From positions 1 to 51,822 of the forward strand of contig JASHOB010000178.1 of the NCBI GenBank assembly GCA_030041335.1: DNA of 51,822 nt, given 5' to 3'. The DNA comes from Alphaproteobacteria bacterium (GTDB taxonomy: Bacteria; Pseudomonadota; Alphaproteobacteria; ATCC43930; CGMCC-115725). Positions within the stretch are counted from its first letter, which is position 1; every line of letters begins with the position of its first letter. This document shows, piece by piece, positions 20,404 through 51,821 of this stretch. The position numbers and the translations under genes were made by a program. The notes under the pieces were generated by a model. That model was not told where the DNA came from. It worked only from the letters and a program-made list of their open reading frames with translations, and made no database searches.

Positions 20404-20432
20404 TTGACGGGTCTGCAATCGGCTCCTAGCTT
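20404..20432 (+). promoter_or_regulatory. Candidate sigma-70 promoter of the binding-protein cluster
   Basis: TTGACG (20404-20409), 17 bases, TAGCTT (20427-20432), about 30 bases before the start codon of the first binding-protein gene. The -35 box and spacing are close to ideal. Confidence 0.55.
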
Positions 20433-20461: not shown

Positions 20462-21670
20462 ATGCGGGTCGGAAGAGTGCTTGCCGTTTTCGGCGCCGTC
20501 ATGCTCGTGACACCCGCCATGGCGCAGATCTCCGACAACAAGGTCAAGATCGCGGTGCTCGACGATTTCTCGGGTCAGTACTGCATCGGTAACTGCATGG
20601 GGCCGGTGGTGGCGACGCGGATCGCCGCCGACGAGTTCGGCGACAAAATCGCTGGCGCGCCGATCGAGATCATCTGGGGCGACCACCAGAACAAACCCGA
20701 TGTTGCCGTCGCCCTCGTCGACAAATGGTTCGACCTCGAGCAGGTCGATGCCATCGCCGACATCACCAATTCCTCGGTCGCCCTCGCCGCCAACCGCATC
20801 GCGCGCGATAAGGGCAAGGCGGTGCTGATGTCCTCGACCGGCTCGCCCGACTTCACCGGCAAGGAATGTGCGCCCTACACGACGCAATGGACTTTCGATA
20901 CCTACCAGTTCGGCAAGAGCATCGCGGAGGCGGTGCCGATGCTCGGCAAGACCTGGTTCATCGTCACCCCCGACTACCTTTTCGGCAAAACGCTCGAGGC
21001 CAACGTTCGCAAGTTCGTCACGGCGGCTGGCGGCAAAGTGATCGGCTCGGTCGTCCATCCCTTCGGCACCAGCGACATGTCGTCCTTCATGTTGCAGGCG
21101 CAGGCATCGGGTGCGCAGGTAATCGCGCTCGCCAATGCGGGTGGCGATCTCACGAACGCGATCAAGACGGCGAAAGAGTTTGGCCTGGTCGACGCGGGGA
21201 TAAAGATCGTTCCCTTGTCGCTCGATCTGCCGTTCATCGACGGGGTCGGCGGACTTTCCGTCGCGCAAGGCATGATGATGACCTTGCCGTGGTATCCAGG
21301 CCTGAAGCCGGAGGCCATGAAATTCGCATTGGAATTCAAGAGGCGCCAAGGCGTGATGCCGGGCTATCTCATGGCTGGACTGTATTCGGTCGTACACAAT
21401 TACCTGCTCGCGATTAAGGCCACGGGTACCGACAATCCCAAGCCTGTGTTCGCCAAGATGCGGGCGACGCCGGTCGACGATGCCTTCGCCACGCACGGCT
21501 ACCTGCGCCGCGATGGCCGCATGGTCCATGACGTCTATCTCGTGCAGGTGAAGAAACCGTCGGAATCAAAAGGCCCTGACGATCTGGTCAAACTGATCGC
21601 GACCATTCCCGGGGACAAGGCCTTCCGTCCCATGGCGGAGGGCGGTTGCCCCTTTGTCGACAAGAGCTGA
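20462..21670 (+). CDS. Periplasmic substrate-binding protein, copy 1 of 3
   Basis: A 402-residue type I periplasmic binding protein of the branched-chain amino acid/amide class (Peripla_BP_6 fold). The signal peptide is cut near TPAMA-QIS. The mature N-terminus has VKIAVLDDFSGQYC. Four cysteines are shared with the next two genes: the pair Cys41/Cys45 in CIGNCMGP, one in ECAPYTTQW, and one in GGCPF near the C-terminus; these probably form two disulfides. An in-frame ATG lies nine codons upstream, but GAGGGAG sits correctly for 20462. No permease or ATPase gene is nearby. The ligand is unknown. Confidence 0.88.
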   Translation: MRVGRVLAVFGAVMLVTPAMAQISDNKVKIAVLDDFSGQYCIGNCMGPVVATRIAADEFGDKIAGAPIEIIWGDHQNKPDVAVALVDKWFDLEQVDAIADITNSSVALAANRIARDKGKAVLMSSTGSPDFTGKECAPYTTQWTFDTYQFGKSIAEAVPMLGKTWFIVTPDYLFGKTLEANVRKFVTAAGGKVIGSVVHPFGTSDMSSFMLQAQASGAQVIALANAGGDLTNAIKTAKEFGLVDAGIKIVPLSLDLPFIDGVGGLSVAQGMMMTLPWYPGLKPEAMKFALEFKRRQGVMPGYLMAGLYSVVHNYLLAIKATGTDNPKPVFAKMRATPVDDAFATHGYLRRDGRMVHDVYLVQVKKPSESKGPDDLVKLIATIPGDKAFRPMAEGGCPFVDKS

Positions 21671-21674
21671 TTCC

Positions 21675-22886
21675 ATGAAATTATCGGCGATGCTTGTCAC
21701 CGCGTTGGCCCTGAGCCTCATCGGCGTCAGCGCCCGCGCGCAATTCTCCCATGGCAAGATCAAGATCGGTGTGCTCGACGATTTCTCGGGCCAATTCTGC
21801 GCCGGCAACTGCATGGGGCCGGTCAATGCCGTGCGCATTGCCGCCGACGAGTTCGGCAACAAGATCGACGGCGTGCCGATCGAAATTATCTGGGGTGATC
21901 ACCAAAACAAACCCGATGTCGGCGTCGCGTTGACGAACAAATGGCTGGACACGGAGCAAGTCGACGTCATCGTCGACGTCGTCAATTCTTCGGTCGCGCT
22001 CGCGGTACAGAACATCGCGCGCGCCAAGGGCAAGGCGGTGTTGTACTCGACCGCAGGTTCGTCCGACCTCACCGGGAAGGCGTGCGCGCCCTATAGCGCC
22101 CATTGGACCTACGACACCTATCAGTTCGGCAAGACCATCGGCGACGCGGTACCTTATCTCGGCAAAACGTGGTTCATCATCGCCACCGATTTCGCCTACG
22201 GCAAGATCCTGGCCAGCCAGATCAAGCTCAATGTCGAGAAGGCCGGCGGCAAGGTACTCGGCACCGTGTTCCACCCGTTCAACGTCAACGACGCGTCGTC
22301 ATTCATCCTGCAAGCGCAAGCCTCGGGGGCACAAGTTGTGGCGCTCGCTAATTCCGGCAATGACGCCACCATCAGCATCAAGGCGGCGAAGGAGTTCGGG
22401 CTCGTCGATGCCGGTGTCAAGATTGTGCCAGTCAGCATGGATTTGCCGTTCGTCGACGGCGCGGGCGGCCTCGCGGTGATGCAGGGCATGTTTCTGCCGC
22501 TGCCGTGGTATCCGGGATTGAGCGACAAAGCGCGGGCCTTTTCGGCCGAATTCAAGAAGCGCCAGGGAACGGAGGCACCCTATCTGATGGCGGGACTGTA
22601 TTCCGCGGTGCGGACCTATCTGCTGGCGGCGCAGGCGACGAACACCGACAACCCCAAACCGATCTTCGAATACATGCGTGCGCACGTCATCAACGACGCC
22701 TTCACCAGCCATGGCGTGCTGCGCCCGGATGGCCGAATGGTGCATGATGTTTACCTGACGCGGCTCAAAAAGCCGTCGCAATCGCAGGGCCCGAACGACC
22801 TGTCAAGGCTGGTCGCGGTAATTCCCGGCGAGAAAGTATTCCGCCCAATGTCCGAAGGCGGTTGTCCTTATGTCAAGAACAACTGA
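21675..22886 (+). CDS. Periplasmic substrate-binding protein, copy 2 of 3
   Basis: A 403-residue paralogue of its neighbours with the same fold. The signal peptide ends near SARAQ. Mature motifs are KIGVLDDFSGQFC and CAGNCMGP (Cys42/Cys46); the ACAPYSAHW and GGCPYV cysteines are also present. It starts four bases after the stop of copy 1, so the two are surely co-transcribed. The closest resemblance to copy 1 is in the middle (KEFGLVDAG, IIWGDHQNKPDV), but its C-terminal stretch (LKKPSQSQGPNDLS) differs from copies 1 and 3. An ATG seven codons earlier would overlap copy 1; I use the one giving a clean signal peptide. Confidence 0.88.
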   Translation: MKLSAMLVTALALSLIGVSARAQFSHGKIKIGVLDDFSGQFCAGNCMGPVNAVRIAADEFGNKIDGVPIEIIWGDHQNKPDVGVALTNKWLDTEQVDVIVDVVNSSVALAVQNIARAKGKAVLYSTAGSSDLTGKACAPYSAHWTYDTYQFGKTIGDAVPYLGKTWFIIATDFAYGKILASQIKLNVEKAGGKVLGTVFHPFNVNDASSFILQAQASGAQVVALANSGNDATISIKAAKEFGLVDAGVKIVPVSMDLPFVDGAGGLAVMQGMFLPLPWYPGLSDKARAFSAEFKKRQGTEAPYLMAGLYSAVRTYLLAAQATNTDNPKPIFEYMRAHVINDAFTSHGVLRPDGRMVHDVYLTRLKKPSQSQGPNDLSRLVAVIPGEKVFRPMSEGGCPYVKNN

Positions 22887-22892
22887 GGGGCG

Positions 22893-22921
22893 TTGACGTC
22901 ATTCGGGGCCTTCAATAAGGT
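22893..22921 (+). promoter_or_regulatory. Candidate sigma-70 promoter of the third binding protein
   Basis: TTGACG (22893-22898), 17 bases, TAAGGT (22916-22921). It lies entirely in the 85-base gap after copy 2, so copy 3 can be transcribed on its own, with a leader of about 45 bases. Confidence 0.55.
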
Positions 22922-22942
22922 CATAGAAATTTGCCGCAATAA

Positions 22943-22959
22943 AACGCCGTGGCGGCGTT
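22943..22959 (+). promoter_or_regulatory. Leader hairpin directly before the ribosome site of binding protein 3
   Basis: Perfect 7-base arms AACGCCG and CGGCGTT with a TGG loop. The stem ends one base before the AGGGAGGAAG ribosome site of the gene at 22972. There is no T-run, so it is not an ordinary terminator. It may stabilise the downstream message or adjust ribosome access. Confidence 0.45.
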
Positions 22960-22971
22960 AGGGAGGAAGCG

Positions 22972-24180
22972 ATGCGGAAGATTCTCGGGGTGGCGACCCT
23001 CGCCGCGGCGATCGCAATGGCACAGGGTGCGCACGCGCAATATTCCGACGGCAAAATCAAACTCGGCATTCTCGACGATTTTTCAGGGCCCTATTGCGTC
23101 GACAACTGCATGGCGCCGATTGTCAGCGTGCAGATCGCGGTCGACGAGTTCGGCGGCAAGATCAACGGCGTGCCGATCGAAGTGATTCATGGCGATCACC
23201 AGGATAAGCCCGACGTCGGCGTGGCGCTGGCCCGGCGCTGGTACGACACCGAACAGGTCGATGTCATTCTCGACGTGGTCTATTCCGGCGTGGCGCTGGC
23301 GGTTCAGAATGTCGCGAGGGAAAAGGGCAAGGCGGTGCTCTATAGCGAAGCCGGCTCCGATGCGCTCACGGGAAAGCAATGCGCTCCCTATAGCGCGCAG
23401 TGGACCTACGACACTTATCAGCTTCCAAACCTCGGCCAGGCGTTGCCGATGCTCGGCAAGAAATGGTTCATTCTCGCCGCCGACTACGCTTACGGCAAAG
23501 CGCTGGTCGCTGGCGTGACGGCGAGCGTCAAGAGGGCCGGCGGCGAGATCGTCGGCACCGTGTTCCATCCGTTCGGCGCCGGCGACATGTCATCCTTTAT
23601 CCTGCAAGCCCAATCGTCGCATGCGGACGTTGTGGCGCTGGGCGATGCCGGCCCCGACATGAACAATGCCATCAAAGCGGCGAACGAGTTCGGCCTCATT
23701 GCGAGCGGCGTCAAGATCGTGCCGCTGAGCATGGATCTGGCCGCGATCCAGGGGGCAGGGGGCCTGCAAGCGACGCAGGGGATGTTTATGGCCCTTCCCT
23801 GGTACCGCGATGCCAATCCCCCGAAGTCCGAGGCATGGGCCCAGGAGTTCGAAAAGCGGCAGAAGACAATGGCGCCCTATCTGATGGCGGGCCTCTACTC
23901 GGCAACGCGCACCTATCTGTTGGCGGCACAAGCAACCGGCACGGACGATCCCAAGAAGATCTTCCCGTGGATGCAATCCCACGTCATCGATGACGCTTTC
24001 ACCGCCCACGGCGTGTTGCGGCCCGACGGCCGCATGGTGCACGACGTCTTTTTGGTGCAAGTCAAGAAACCGTCCGAATCAAAGGGTCCGCGCGATCTGG
24101 CGAAGCTGATCGCGACCATCCCCGGAGACAAGGCGTTCCGGCCCATGGCCGATGGCGGCTGCCCTTACATTAAACCGTAA
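22972..24180 (+). CDS. Periplasmic substrate-binding protein, copy 3 of 3
   Basis: A 402-residue paralogue with a signal peptide (cut near GAHAQ) and mature start KIKLGILDDFSGPYC. The four cysteines are kept (CVDNCMAP, QCAPYSAQW, GGCPYI). The ligand-cleft region differs from copies 1 and 2: LDLPFID or MDLPFVD is replaced by MDLAAIQG, and QFGKS/T by QLPNL. This suggests a different ligand. The C-terminal stretch VKKPSESKGP is nearly identical to copy 1. Strong GGAGG site; its own promoter-like sequence and a leader hairpin precede it. Confidence 0.88.
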   Translation: MRKILGVATLAAAIAMAQGAHAQYSDGKIKLGILDDFSGPYCVDNCMAPIVSVQIAVDEFGGKINGVPIEVIHGDHQDKPDVGVALARRWYDTEQVDVILDVVYSGVALAVQNVAREKGKAVLYSEAGSDALTGKQCAPYSAQWTYDTYQLPNLGQALPMLGKKWFILAADYAYGKALVAGVTASVKRAGGEIVGTVFHPFGAGDMSSFILQAQSSHADVVALGDAGPDMNNAIKAANEFGLIASGVKIVPLSMDLAAIQGAGGLQATQGMFMALPWYRDANPPKSEAWAQEFEKRQKTMAPYLMAGLYSATRTYLLAAQATGTDDPKKIFPWMQSHVIDDAFTAHGVLRPDGRMVHDVFLVQVKKPSESKGPRDLAKLIATIPGDKAFRPMADGGCPYIKP

Positions 24181-48290: not shown

Positions 48291-49172
48291 ATGCTGAAGC
48301 GTGTGCTGCTCGTCCTGATGATCATTTGCGCGCCCCTCGACGCGCGCGCCGCAATCGTCGTCGCCTCGAAGATCGATACCGAGGGCTCGCTGCTCGGCAA
48401 CATGATCCTGTTGCTGCTGCAACAGCACGGCATTGCCGCCACGGGTAAGCTCCAGCTCGGCCCGACGCAAATCGTGCGTCAGGCGCTCATCGCCGGCGAG
48501 ATCGACGTCTACCCCGAATACACGGGTAACGGTGCCTTCTTTTTTCACCAGGAAAACGATCCGGCGTGGCGTGACGCGGCGGGCGGATATGAGCGCGTCA
48601 AGTCGCTCGATGCGCGCAACGGGCTGGTCTGGCTCACGCCGGCGCCCGCCAACAACACCTGGGCGATCGCGGTGCGCCGCGACCTGAGGCTCGCGACGCT
48701 CGAGGAATTTGCGCGTTACGTCAGCAGCGGCGGTAAGGTACGGCTCGCAGCATCCGCGGAGTTCGTCAACAGTCCGGGTGGCTTGCCCTCGTTCGAAAGG
48801 ACCTACGATTTTGCGCTGACGTCTCGCCAATTGCTGACGCTCGCGGGCGGCAACACGGCCGCCACCACGCGCGCGGCCGCGGAGCACATCTCGTCCGTCA
48901 ATGCGGCGATGGCCTACGGCACCGATGGCGCGCTATCGGTCCTGGGCCTGGTGGCGTTGCGGGACGATCGAGGGGCGCAGATTGTCTACCGGCCTGCGCC
49001 AGTGGTGCGGGAGACGGTCCTGAAAGCCCATCCGAATCTACCCGCGATTCTCGATCCTGTGTTCAGCACCCTGACGCTGCCGACCCTGCAATCGCTCAAT
49101 GCCAAGATATCGATCGATGGATCGGACGCCCGCGCCGTCGCCGCCCACTATTTAGAGACGCTCGCGAAATGA
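48291..49172 (+). CDS. Osmoprotectant-type ABC substrate-binding protein (OsmF/YehZ-like)
   Basis: A 293-residue quaternary-amine binding protein. The signal peptide is LKRVLLVLMIICAPLDARAA. The mature start IVVASKIDTEGSLLGNM and the DVYPEYTGNGAFFF stretch match the glycine betaine/choline OpuAC-like family. The aromatic-rich positions are consistent with a cation-binding box. Two ATG codons are possible (48267, 48291); the latter yields a clean signal peptide. It overlaps the first permease by four bases and starts a complete importer operon. Confidence 0.88.
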   Translation: MLKRVLLVLMIICAPLDARAAIVVASKIDTEGSLLGNMILLLLQQHGIAATGKLQLGPTQIVRQALIAGEIDVYPEYTGNGAFFFHQENDPAWRDAAGGYERVKSLDARNGLVWLTPAPANNTWAIAVRRDLRLATLEEFARYVSSGGKVRLAASAEFVNSPGGLPSFERTYDFALTSRQLLTLAGGNTAATTRAAAEHISSVNAAMAYGTDGALSVLGLVALRDDRGAQIVYRPAPVVRETVLKAHPNLPAILDPVFSTLTLPTLQSLNAKISIDGSDARAVAAHYLETLAK

Positions 49173-50317
49173 ACGGTCGTAACCGCGTTATCCCGGCGCT
49201 GATGGCGACGTACGCGCTTGCCGGCTTTTTCGGGGCCTTCTTAAGCCAAGCGCCGAACCGGCTGCTTTCGGGAACGCCGGTGGCAATCTGGAACGCAGTG
49301 GATCGCCCGATCCTGGTCCTGCTCGTCGCGCTTGCCGGATTGTTGATCGCCTTGTCGCAGCTCGGCGCGTCGCAAAACCTGCACCGCGCGATGCTGCTGT
49401 TCGCGACGGTGCTGCTTCTGCTGCTCCTTGACGGCGCGGGCCGCGGTGCCGCGGCGTTGTCGCAAGGCGCGACTGCCACGTCGCGCGTGTCGCTCGGCTG
49501 GGCCTTCTGGCTGATGACCTTGTGCGCGACATTCGCGATCGTCGACGCCGTACAGCGCCTGAACCTCAAGCCGGAGAAGCAGCTGGCCCTGACCGTCGCC
49601 TTGGTGGCCGCGATCGCGGCCATGACCCTCAGCGGCAGCTTCGACCATTTGTCGCTGTTGCGCGAATTCGCGATGCAGCGCAGCGCCTTCTTTGCCGAGT
49701 TGGCGCGCCATGCCGAATTGGTCATCGGCGCCATGGTGCCGGCCTTGGCCATCGGCGTGCCGTTGGGATTGTGGGGGGCACGCCACCCGCACAGCCGTCC
49801 GGCACTGTTCGGCACGCTTAACATCCTGCAAACGATTCCCTCGGTGGCACTCTTTGGCTTGTTGATCGGGCCGCTTTCGGCACTGGCGGCGGCAATGCCG
49901 GCCCTGGGTGCGCTCGGGATTCGCGGCATCGGCGTTACGCCGGCACTCGTGGCCTTGGTTCTCTATGCGCTGCTGCCGGTGGTGCGCAACAGCGTCGCCG
50001 GCGTCGAGGCCGCAGATCCGGCAATCATCGAGGCGGCTCGCGGCATGGGGTTCACCCCGCGCCAGATTTTCTTCCACGTGCAACTGCCGTTGGGTCTGCC
50101 GGTCTTTATCGCCGGCCTCCGCATCGTGCTGGTACAAACGATCGGCCTCGCCGTGATTGCAGCGCTGATCGGCGGTGGCGGACTGGGCAGCTTTATCTTT
50201 CAGGGCATCGGCCAGTACGCGATTGATCTGGTCCTGCTTGGCGCCCTTCCGGTGACGGCGTTGGCGCTAGCGGCGGATTTTCTGTTGCGGCTCGCTACCG
50301 CTAGGCGGGCGGGATGA
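49169..50317 (+). CDS. Osmoprotectant-type ABC permease 1 (YehY-like)
   Basis: A 382-residue permease. The N-terminal half has four or more extra helices, as in YehY. The C-terminal half is the MetI-like permease core, with the coupling-helix motif EAARGMGFTPRQIFFHVQLP. It pairs with the shorter permease at the end of the operon. Four-base overlaps on both sides. Confidence 0.9.
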   Translation: MNGRNRVIPALMATYALAGFFGAFLSQAPNRLLSGTPVAIWNAVDRPILVLLVALAGLLIALSQLGASQNLHRAMLLFATVLLLLLLDGAGRGAAALSQGATATSRVSLGWAFWLMTLCATFAIVDAVQRLNLKPEKQLALTVALVAAIAAMTLSGSFDHLSLLREFAMQRSAFFAELARHAELVIGAMVPALAIGVPLGLWGARHPHSRPALFGTLNILQTIPSVALFGLLIGPLSALAAAMPALGALGIRGIGVTPALVALVLYALLPVVRNSVAGVEAADPAIIEAARGMGFTPRQIFFHVQLPLGLPVFIAGLRIVLVQTIGLAVIAALIGGGGLGSFIFQGIGQYAIDLVLLGALPVTALALAADFLLRLATARRAG

Positions 50318-51081
50318 TCGAGCTCGATCACGTCAGCCACAGGGTTGGCGACCGCCTCATCGTCGACAACCTATCGCTGACCATTGGCCGCGGTGAGTTC
50401 TGCGCGCTGGTCGGCCCCTCGGGTTCGGGGAAATCGACGACGCTGAAAATGATCAACCGCCTGGTGCCCGCAACCGCGGGCGCCGTCCGGATAGAAGGCC
50501 GCGATGTTGCGGAGCGACCGGCAGAGCAACTCCGCCGCTCGATCGGCTACGTGATCCAGTCGATCGGTCTCTTCCCCCATTGGACGGTCGCCGACAACAT
50601 CGCGACCGTGCCCCGCCTCCTGGACTGGCCCGCGGAGAGGCGGCGCGCGCGCGTGGCGGAGCTGCTTCAGCTACTGCGGCTCGATGGCAACGAGGGGGCG
50701 AAGTATCCGCAACAATTGTCCGGTGGCCAGCAACAGCGCGTCGGCGTGGCGCGGGCACTGGCGGCTGATCCCGACATTCTACTAATGGACGAGCCGTTCG
50801 GCGCTCTTGACCCGATCACCCGCTTGGCATTGCAAACCGAGCTCGCGGCGATCCACCGCCGTCTGGCCAAGACCATTCTGTTCGTCACGCACGATATCGA
50901 CGAAGCGCTGCGGCTCGCCGATCGCGTCGCGATCCTCGATCGCGGTAAGCTCGTGCAACTCGGCTCGCCCCAGGAGATTCTGGCCAATCCCGTTTCGGAT
51001 TTCGTGCGCGAATTTATCGGGGATCCGGAACTTCGCCGGCTCGCGTTGAACATTGCGCGCGCCAAGGATGCAAATGGATGA
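50314..51081 (+). CDS. Osmoprotectant-type ABC ATP-binding protein (YehX-like)
   Basis: A 255-residue ATPase. Walker A is GPSGSGKSTT, the Q-loop region is IGYVIQSIGLFPHW, the signature is LSGGQQQRVGVARAL, Walker B is ILLMDEPFGALDP, and the H-loop is FVTHDIDEAL. There is no C-terminal CBS pair, unlike OpuA/ProV ATPases, so ionic-strength gating through CBS domains is not expected. Confidence 0.93.
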   Translation: MIELDHVSHRVGDRLIVDNLSLTIGRGEFCALVGPSGSGKSTTLKMINRLVPATAGAVRIEGRDVAERPAEQLRRSIGYVIQSIGLFPHWTVADNIATVPRLLDWPAERRRARVAELLQLLRLDGNEGAKYPQQLSGGQQQRVGVARALAADPDILLMDEPFGALDPITRLALQTELAAIHRRLAKTILFVTHDIDEALRLADRVAILDRGKLVQLGSPQEILANPVSDFVREFIGDPELRRLALNIARAKDANG

Positions 51082-51821
51082 GGTCGACGCGCACGCCGTT
51101 GTTCTGGCTGGCGGCCTTCCTCGTCGCTTGGCTCGTTGCCACGCCTTACCTCAAACCGCTCTACGCGGCGCTGTTCCCCGACACCGACCCGCCAGTTTAT
51201 CAGGGCGATACGTTGTTCGATCTGTTCCTGTGGCACGCGCTCGTTGTCCTCGCGGCCAGCACCGCGGCCCTCGTGCTCGGCGTTGGTGGTGGCGTGTTCG
51301 CCACCGCCGACGCGGGGCGCGATTTCCGCGCCAGCGCCAACGTGCTCGCCACGATTGGCCAAACCTTTCCGCCCGTGGCTTTGCTCGCCATCGCGGTGCC
51401 GGCGATCGGCTATGGCTTCTGGCCGACCTTCATCGCGTTGACGCTCTATGGCGTGCTGCCGATCCTCGCCAACACCATGGCCGGCATCGAAGCGGTTCCG
51501 GCGGCTGTCCGCGATGCCGCGCGGGGCATGGGCCTGTCGCCGGCGCAAATTCTGCGCCAAGTGGAGTTGCCCCTGGCTCTGCCCGTGATTCTCGCCGGCG
51601 TCCGCACCTCGGTGATCATCAATATCGGCACCGCAGCGCTCGGTTCCACCGTCGGCGCGGACACGCTCGGTGCGCCGATCATCGAAGGGCTCGTGGTCGA
51701 CAAGCTTGCCTATATCATTCAGGGCGGCGTCGCGGTGGCGTTGATGGCGATCGTGACCGATCTCGGCTTCGAGCAGTTACAGCGCCGCATGGTAAGATAC
51801 CAGTCGGTGCCTTACGCCTAA
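51078..51821 (+). CDS. Osmoprotectant-type ABC permease 2 (YehW-like)
   Basis: A 247-residue permease with about six helices and the coupling motif RDAARGMGLSPAQILRQVELP, plus GTAALGSTVGADTLGAPI near the end. It completes the binding protein-permease-ATPase-permease set. Its stop is the last codon of the window, so downstream genes are unseen. Confidence 0.92.
   Translation: MRSTRTPLFWLAAFLVAWLVATPYLKPLYAALFPDTDPPVYQGDTLFDLFLWHALVVLAASTAALVLGVGGGVFATADAGRDFRASANVLATIGQTFPPVALLAIAVPAIGYGFWPTFIALTLYGVLPILANTMAGIEAVPAAVRDAARGMGLSPAQILRQVELPLALPVILAGVRTSVIINIGTAALGSTVGADTLGAPIIEGLVVDKLAYIIQGGVAVALMAIVTDLGFEQLQRRMVRYQSVPYA

Follow-up and report, generated by a model that had tools for sequence, protein, structure and literature searches.

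A tandem triplet of orphan binding-protein genes

The window analysed here, contig JASHOB010000178.1 at its full length of 51,822 nucleotides, is the entire contig C212 of an alphaproteobacterial assembly (G000; 5.17 Mb in 262 contigs), and it carries three tandem genes for periplasmic substrate-binding proteins (SBPs), referred to below as copies 1, 2 and 3 (Table 1). An earlier note on this DNA had described three full-length, head-to-tail paralogues, and its coordinates and common orientation were correct. All three proteins match the Peripla_BP_6 profile (PF13458) over their whole length, at 279-289 bits against a gathering score of 31.7, and are 60-65% identical to one another; NCBIfam models for urea and branched-chain-amino-acid SBPs (TIGR03669, TIGR03407 and NF011933) gave no more than 60.3 bits, where the cut-offs are 477-494.8. 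Copies 1 and 2 are probably carried on one transcript, because copy 2 starts only 4 bp after copy 1.

Table 1. Binding-protein genes and promoter-like elements of the triplet locus.
Feature	Position	Strand	Remarks
Copy 1, orphan Peripla_BP_6 binding protein	20462-21670	+	402 aa, C-x3-C; Pfam E 1e-85
Copy 2, orphan Peripla_BP_6 binding protein	21675-22886	+	403 aa, C-x3-C; Pfam E 8e-83
Copy 3, orphan Peripla_BP_6 binding protein	22972-24180	+	402 aa, C-x3-C; Pfam E 1e-85
Promoter-like element TTGACG-N14-CAATAAGGTCATAGAAA	22893-22929	+	upstream of copy 3; same pattern before the C94 core
Possible plain sigma-70 promoter of copy 1, TTGACG-N17-TAGCTT	20404-20432	+	by eye

An AlphaFold2 model was made for copy 3 only (alignment of 81 rows; pLDDT 92.4, pTM 0.91), and its best PDB match by Foldseek was 3i09 (E 2e-38, TMt 0.91); copy 3 is predicted to have an ordinary type I binding-protein fold. 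The Burkholderia binding proteins 3i09 and 3n0w are the best matches to the triplet in both sequence and fold, and they retain the CxPY-region and C-terminal cysteines in alignments but are without C-x3-C. No paper naming 3i09 or 3n0w was found in the open-access collection searched, and no ligand could be taken over from these solved relatives.

The earlier note's statement that no permease or ATPase lies in reach holds in the sense that none of the genome's 92 PF02653 matches (profile search of G000) falls on C212, leaving the contig free of LIV-type permeases. An ATP-binding cassette (ABC) set that it does carry, a permease/ATPase/permease array at 49169-51821, belongs to another class (BPD_transp_1) and lies at the very end of the contig, approximately 25 kb from the triplet. 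No permease or ATPase gene adjoins the triplet in an operon of its own, the arrangement expected of a HAAT-type importer encoded together with its SBP. The neighbours identified by Pfam scan are unrelated, namely a bc1 complex, a glutamate-synthase-like protein, an HNH protein and a NUDIX protein. Over its 5.17 Mb the genome yielded 92 BPD_transp_2 matches and 85 Peripla_BP_6 matches, the latter counting fragments and three matches that fell short of the cut-off; its complement of LIV-type transporters appears to be very large.

Of the named relatives found, the nearest is a Stellaceae metagenome-assembled genome (L031, judged by length and positions to be the same contig as G003:C37), a congener that keeps the triplet in the same order. 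The wider flanks are also alike, with Rieske and cytochrome b genes on the left and an HNH protein and the next gene on the right. The immediate left flank differs: in the window, the bc1 genes are separated from the triplet by a glutamate-synthase-like gene (PF01645; 18727-20334) that has no counterpart in L031, where copy 1 directly follows the bc1 genes. Copies 1, 2 and 3 share 90, 79 and 90% amino acid identity with their L031 orthologues; nonsynonymous divergence (dN) is 0.067, 0.166 and 0.074, against synonymous divergence (dS) of 0.70, 0.87 and 0.77 (NG86 estimates), giving dN/dS of about 0.10, 0.19 and 0.10 and making copy 2 the fastest-evolving of the three. Because the congener orthologues keep their order with dN far below dS, all three copies appear to be real genes under purifying selection. 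The L031 orthologue of copy 2 shifts frame near its end (L031 9540-9665), which may be an assembly error.

A transporter core without an adjoining binding protein

The earlier note had proposed searching related genomes for the cluster and for a permease that occurs with it; this recovered the triplet in L031/G003 and, in a second congener (G001), an orthologous transporter core complete with an SBP. The G001 operon has the order SBP-ATPase-ATPase-LivH-LivM (the first ATPase and both permeases assigned by Pfam, the second ATPase as a profile match), and its SBP, at 83-85% identity, is the closest relative of copy 3 outside the triplet. By LivM identity G001 is the outlying genome (80%, vs 90-92%). 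The orthologues of its LivH and LivM in G000 are 89 and 80% identical and lie adjacent at C94:12960-14802, the next-best matches in that genome being 39 and 37%. They form part of a complete LivG-LivF-LivH-LivM core on the minus strand of G000:C94, at about 12.9-16.4 kb (Pfam). Around this core, tblastn with copies 1-3 recovered neither an SBP of the triplet's subfamily nor a remnant of one; the sole match with E < 0.1 was a distant PF13458 gene at C94:5746-6789. An SBP-less core is likewise carried by G003:C33, and by G002, where the promoter and the LivG start lie on C74 and the remainder on C67, two contigs that would adjoin, judging by gene order. In G000 itself, none of the eight subfamily members found at E < 1e-60 has a same-strand permease within 3 kb; the member on C125 has a right flank of just 2.1 kb, and no PF02653 match is listed elsewhere on that contig either.

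Phylogenetic analysis took in 103 of the 167 rows of the subfamily alignment, with L032 left out and L062 included. All three copies fell within one clade of eight rows (SH-aLRT 100), in which copy 3 and its G003 orthologue were sister to the G001 operon SBP (SH-aLRT 99). A recent tandem triplication was rejected: the G001 operon SBP and a further G000 protein, on C60, are nearer to copy 3 than copies 1 and 2 are, and every copy is paired in the tree with its orthologue from G003. In other genera the operon order is ATPase-ATPase-SBP-permease-permease, with SBPs of other clades. The L062 record, titled Exiguobacterium profundum and kept off the reference list for an undetermined letter or stop in its sequence, contributed a binding protein that grouped with those of Paracoccaceae (support 99), which points to mislabelling or contamination of the record.

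The locus of copy 3 and the C94 core also share a promoter-like pattern. Upstream of copy 3, 17 bases separate TTGACG from TAAGGT by eye, the spacing of a sigma-70 promoter. A 37-base pattern, TTGAC-N15-CAATAAGGTYATAGAAA, searched for in eight genomes with up to three mismatches, gave six sites, all of them exact and all before a core, an operon SBP or copy 3: G000 C94 (core) and C212 (copy 3), G003 C33 (core) and C37 (copy 3), G001 C352 (operon SBP) and G002 C74 (LivG). The two G000 sites were thus the only ones in that genome at this tolerance; no site was found in G004, G007, G014 or G016, and the reversed control pattern gave none. A consensus promoter scan returned neither the element before copy 3 nor the one before copy 1, and the case for a shared promoter therefore rests on the exact common pattern and not on the scan.

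The sister position in the tree, together with the promoter pattern at both loci, suggests that a single gene underlies the G001 operon SBP and copy 3, one that adjoins the core in one species and lies away from it in others. Given its 83-85% identity to the SBP encoded with the orthologous core in G001 and the pattern that it has in common with the C94 core, copy 3 very probably represents the displaced partner of the C94 core, with copies 1 and 2 as probable extra receptors. The earlier note's suggestion of a transporter encoded elsewhere thereby gained support and a candidate, since orthology, the missing SBP and the common promoter pattern all point to C94 as the putative cognate core in the same genome.

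It is likely, on this evidence, that the triplet encodes SBPs of a HAAT-type ABC importer whose core sits at C94, one pump with several receptors. Core and SBP would once have formed a single operon under this promoter and would now stand apart, each with a promoter copy, copy 3 having come to stand behind two older paralogues. The copy 3 locus and the C94 core would be co-expressed, and all three copies, once closed around their ligands, would dock on one LivHM pair, a single pump serving several receptors, probably with different ligands.

Cores and binding proteins among relatives

Across 43 genomes of the order, 25 copies of the LivM orthologue were found in 24, and 99 subfamily SBPs in 30 (per-genome counts), with up to 15 in G014 and 10 in G016. 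Among the 24 core-bearing genomes, 17 had more than one SBP and seven had one. SBPs were present in 24 of 24 genomes with a core vs 6 of 19 without, the latter with one each (Fisher p 7e-7, uncorrected for relatedness and with some genomes incomplete). In an earlier set of 41 genomes, 20 held 21 cores; a subfamily SBP adjoined 18 of these (one, G004:C120, via a contig-edge fragment), and the three without an adjoining SBP were those of G000, G002 and G003.

SBP genes were scored as linked when a same-strand permease lay within 3 kb or an ATPase within 2.5 kb. By this definition, the 79 rows from relatives in the order (the window's own genome included, G003 left out) comprised 39 orphans, 21 linked genes and 19 too near the end of a stretch to be classed, vs seven orphans, 78 linked genes and three at an edge among 88 rows from a wider contig set that is mostly Burkholderiales (best 80 of 498 matches, with L031 and L032 included). 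The linked arrangement is the rule in the wider contig set, and orphans are the more common in this order. Among the 21 linked rows from the order, 17 adjoined this type of core, one (L184) was cut off after the ATPases, and three (L211, L212 and L229) stood beside other ABC genes. Operons with two tandem SBPs, in the order ATPase-ATPase-SBP-SBP-permease-permease, were seen in L039, L052, L063, L064, L069, L074 and L088, mostly from Burkholderiales.

Several observations weigh against assigning the whole triplet to C94. The C94 core and the triplet are on separate contigs, and copies 1 and 2 are without the special promoter. Six genomes of the order have an SBP and no core that was found, and in G002, whose assembly is 70% complete, the SBP-less core is present without any C-x3-C SBP. 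The distant members L229 (G001:C83), L211 (G027:C1) and L212 (G028:C96) lie beside other same-strand ABC genes; the link of the subfamily to this core type is not exclusive. The C125 orphan of G000 (L028 11281-12504) groups with core-linked SBPs of other genera (support 92) and may be an older partner of the C94 core. Finally, the genome has 92 PF02653 matches, so that other cores could serve copies 1 and 2.

These last proteins might indeed feed one or more other LIV-type permeases, with copy 3 alone belonging to C94, as the placement of the shared promoter before copy 3 only, the near relationship of copy 3 to the operon SBP, the number of permease matches in the genome and the company kept by L211, L212 and L229 would all allow. 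We nevertheless regard this as unlikely, given that all three copies share the one eight-row clade, that 17 of the 21 linked rows of relatives adjoin the C94 core type, and that the other permeases of G000 are no more than about 40% identical to those of the C94 core.

Cysteines, cleft loops and ligands

The earlier note had pointed to four common cysteines and from them to two disulfides. The positions are as it described (C42, C46, C137 and C397 in copy 2), but they do not form one set. The CAPY and GGCP cysteines (C137 and C397) occur in 166 of the 167 subfamily rows, the exception being the truncated L031 copy 2. The C-x3-C motif occurs in eight of 167, always as a pair and never as a single cysteine: the three window copies, the three of L031, one protein on C60 of G000 and the G001 operon protein. 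(L032 and L164 are probably one contig and both are counted among the 167; L159, the same contig as L031, was dropped from the counts.) The four cysteines were consequently rejected as a single signature, one pair being family-wide and the other limited to a clade. The sequence pattern fits two disulfides, one alone of which would be specific to this group; most simply read, a single disulfide is family-wide and the C-x3-C clade has an additional pair in the loop after the first strand. The latter pair would lend itself well to a test of redox behaviour or stability.

The C60 protein (L026 4478-10794), the fourth C-x3-C member in the genome, is clustered with a second PF13458 protein, a PQQ alcohol-dehydrogenase-like protein and a cytochrome c, with no permease within the 17 kb around. 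A role with a PQQ dehydrogenase was considered for the triplet and set aside, as no such gene was seen beside it, unlike in the C60 cluster. That the proteins act as periplasmic sensors or scavengers without a transporter, for example with a receptor or periplasmic enzymes as partners, is very improbable: the unrelated genes around the triplet and the setting of the C60 member speak for it, but outside the triplet their closest relative serves as the SBP in an ABC operon that is complete, and the common promoter ties copy 3 to a core. No kinase, chemoreceptor or regulator was seen among the nine window genes besides the triplet that the Pfam scan covered, and the sensor option raised in the earlier note gained no support.

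The loop difference reported for copy 3 was seen again, with DLPF in copies 1 and 2 and DLAA in copy 3. Across loops selected by us as probable cleft-lining segments, copy 3 and the G001 operon SBP were 90% identical. IHGDHQDKP, VYSGVALA and PWYRDANPP are common to copy 3, its orthologue and the G001 protein, and their counterparts in copies 1 and 2 are IWGDHQNKP, NSSVALA and PWYPGL. Compared with the rest of the protein, these loops show no marked excess of change between copies: identity is 60 vs 63% and 62 vs 68% when copy 3 is compared with the other two, and 72 vs 67% for copy 1 against copy 2, figures that add to the case against receptors of differing specificity on one pump. The widening of ligand range put forward in the earlier note is not borne out by loops that differ hardly more than the rest of the protein.

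The same small excess, with the shared family and length and the 60-65% identity, would suit three redundant copies that bind one ligand and act through dosage only. This seems improbable to us, in that the loop differences are kept copy by copy across two species (97, 85 and 93% identity between the window and the congener orthologues of copies 1, 2 and 3) and that several loop residues differ in kind, as in IWGDHQNKP vs IHGDHQDKP. Different ligands for the copies are a fair reading of the sequences. Amino acids, small carboxylates and aromatic acids make up the ligand range of the wider family. Two more distant orphan members (L029 and L030) stand beside FAA hydrolase and Rieske oxygenase (vanillate demethylase-like) genes, a setting that suggests aromatic acids as their ligands.

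Discussion

The distribution of cores and SBPs in the order allows a broader proposal, which we offer tentatively and with some doubt, that the importer is a hub, in which a free-standing LivFGHM core, single in all core-bearing genomes but one, which has two, would serve up to 15 scattered SBPs, some of them beside catabolic genes, much as the S components of group II energy-coupling factor (ECF) transporters are dispersed. The genus of the window would be the last step, in which the core has no adjoining SBP and is tied to one only by the common promoter.

The narrower assignment of the triplet to the C94 core has partial counterparts in known systems. In Escherichia coli, LivJ and LivK share LivHMGF, likewise several SBPs for one LIV core, but from one locus, against two here. 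In Rhizobium leguminosarum, BraC3 is an orphan SBP encoded apart from a LIV-type core, interacting with the Bra core and having its own specificity, and that core has an SBP of its own, BraC (PMC2978685). The C94 core has none adjoining, and here there are three tandem orphans, one of which shares a promoter pattern with the core. For Rhodopseudomonas palustris, SBPs separated from their transporter genes are said to be a common occurrence (PMC3223731, citing Thomas 2010, 'Homes for the orphans'); the case treated there is a polyamine SBP, and no common promoter or tandem set appears in the portion of the account seen (PMC3223731). An SBP-less core that shares its promoter with an SBP gene elsewhere was not found described in the sections of the open-access literature consulted, an absence that carries little weight. 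As judged from sequence, the present case appears to be a well-supported instance of the known sharing of orphan SBPs, in which the SBP-less core and the common promoter are unusual.

Orphan SBPs are common and their partners are usually guessed; here sequence alone allows a partner to be put forward, on the basis of a promoter common to the displaced gene and the core and of a congener in which the two are joined in one operon. The idea of one core with many receptors becomes directly testable in this system, and the combination of a common promoter with an SBP-less core may offer a route to placing other orphan SBPs.

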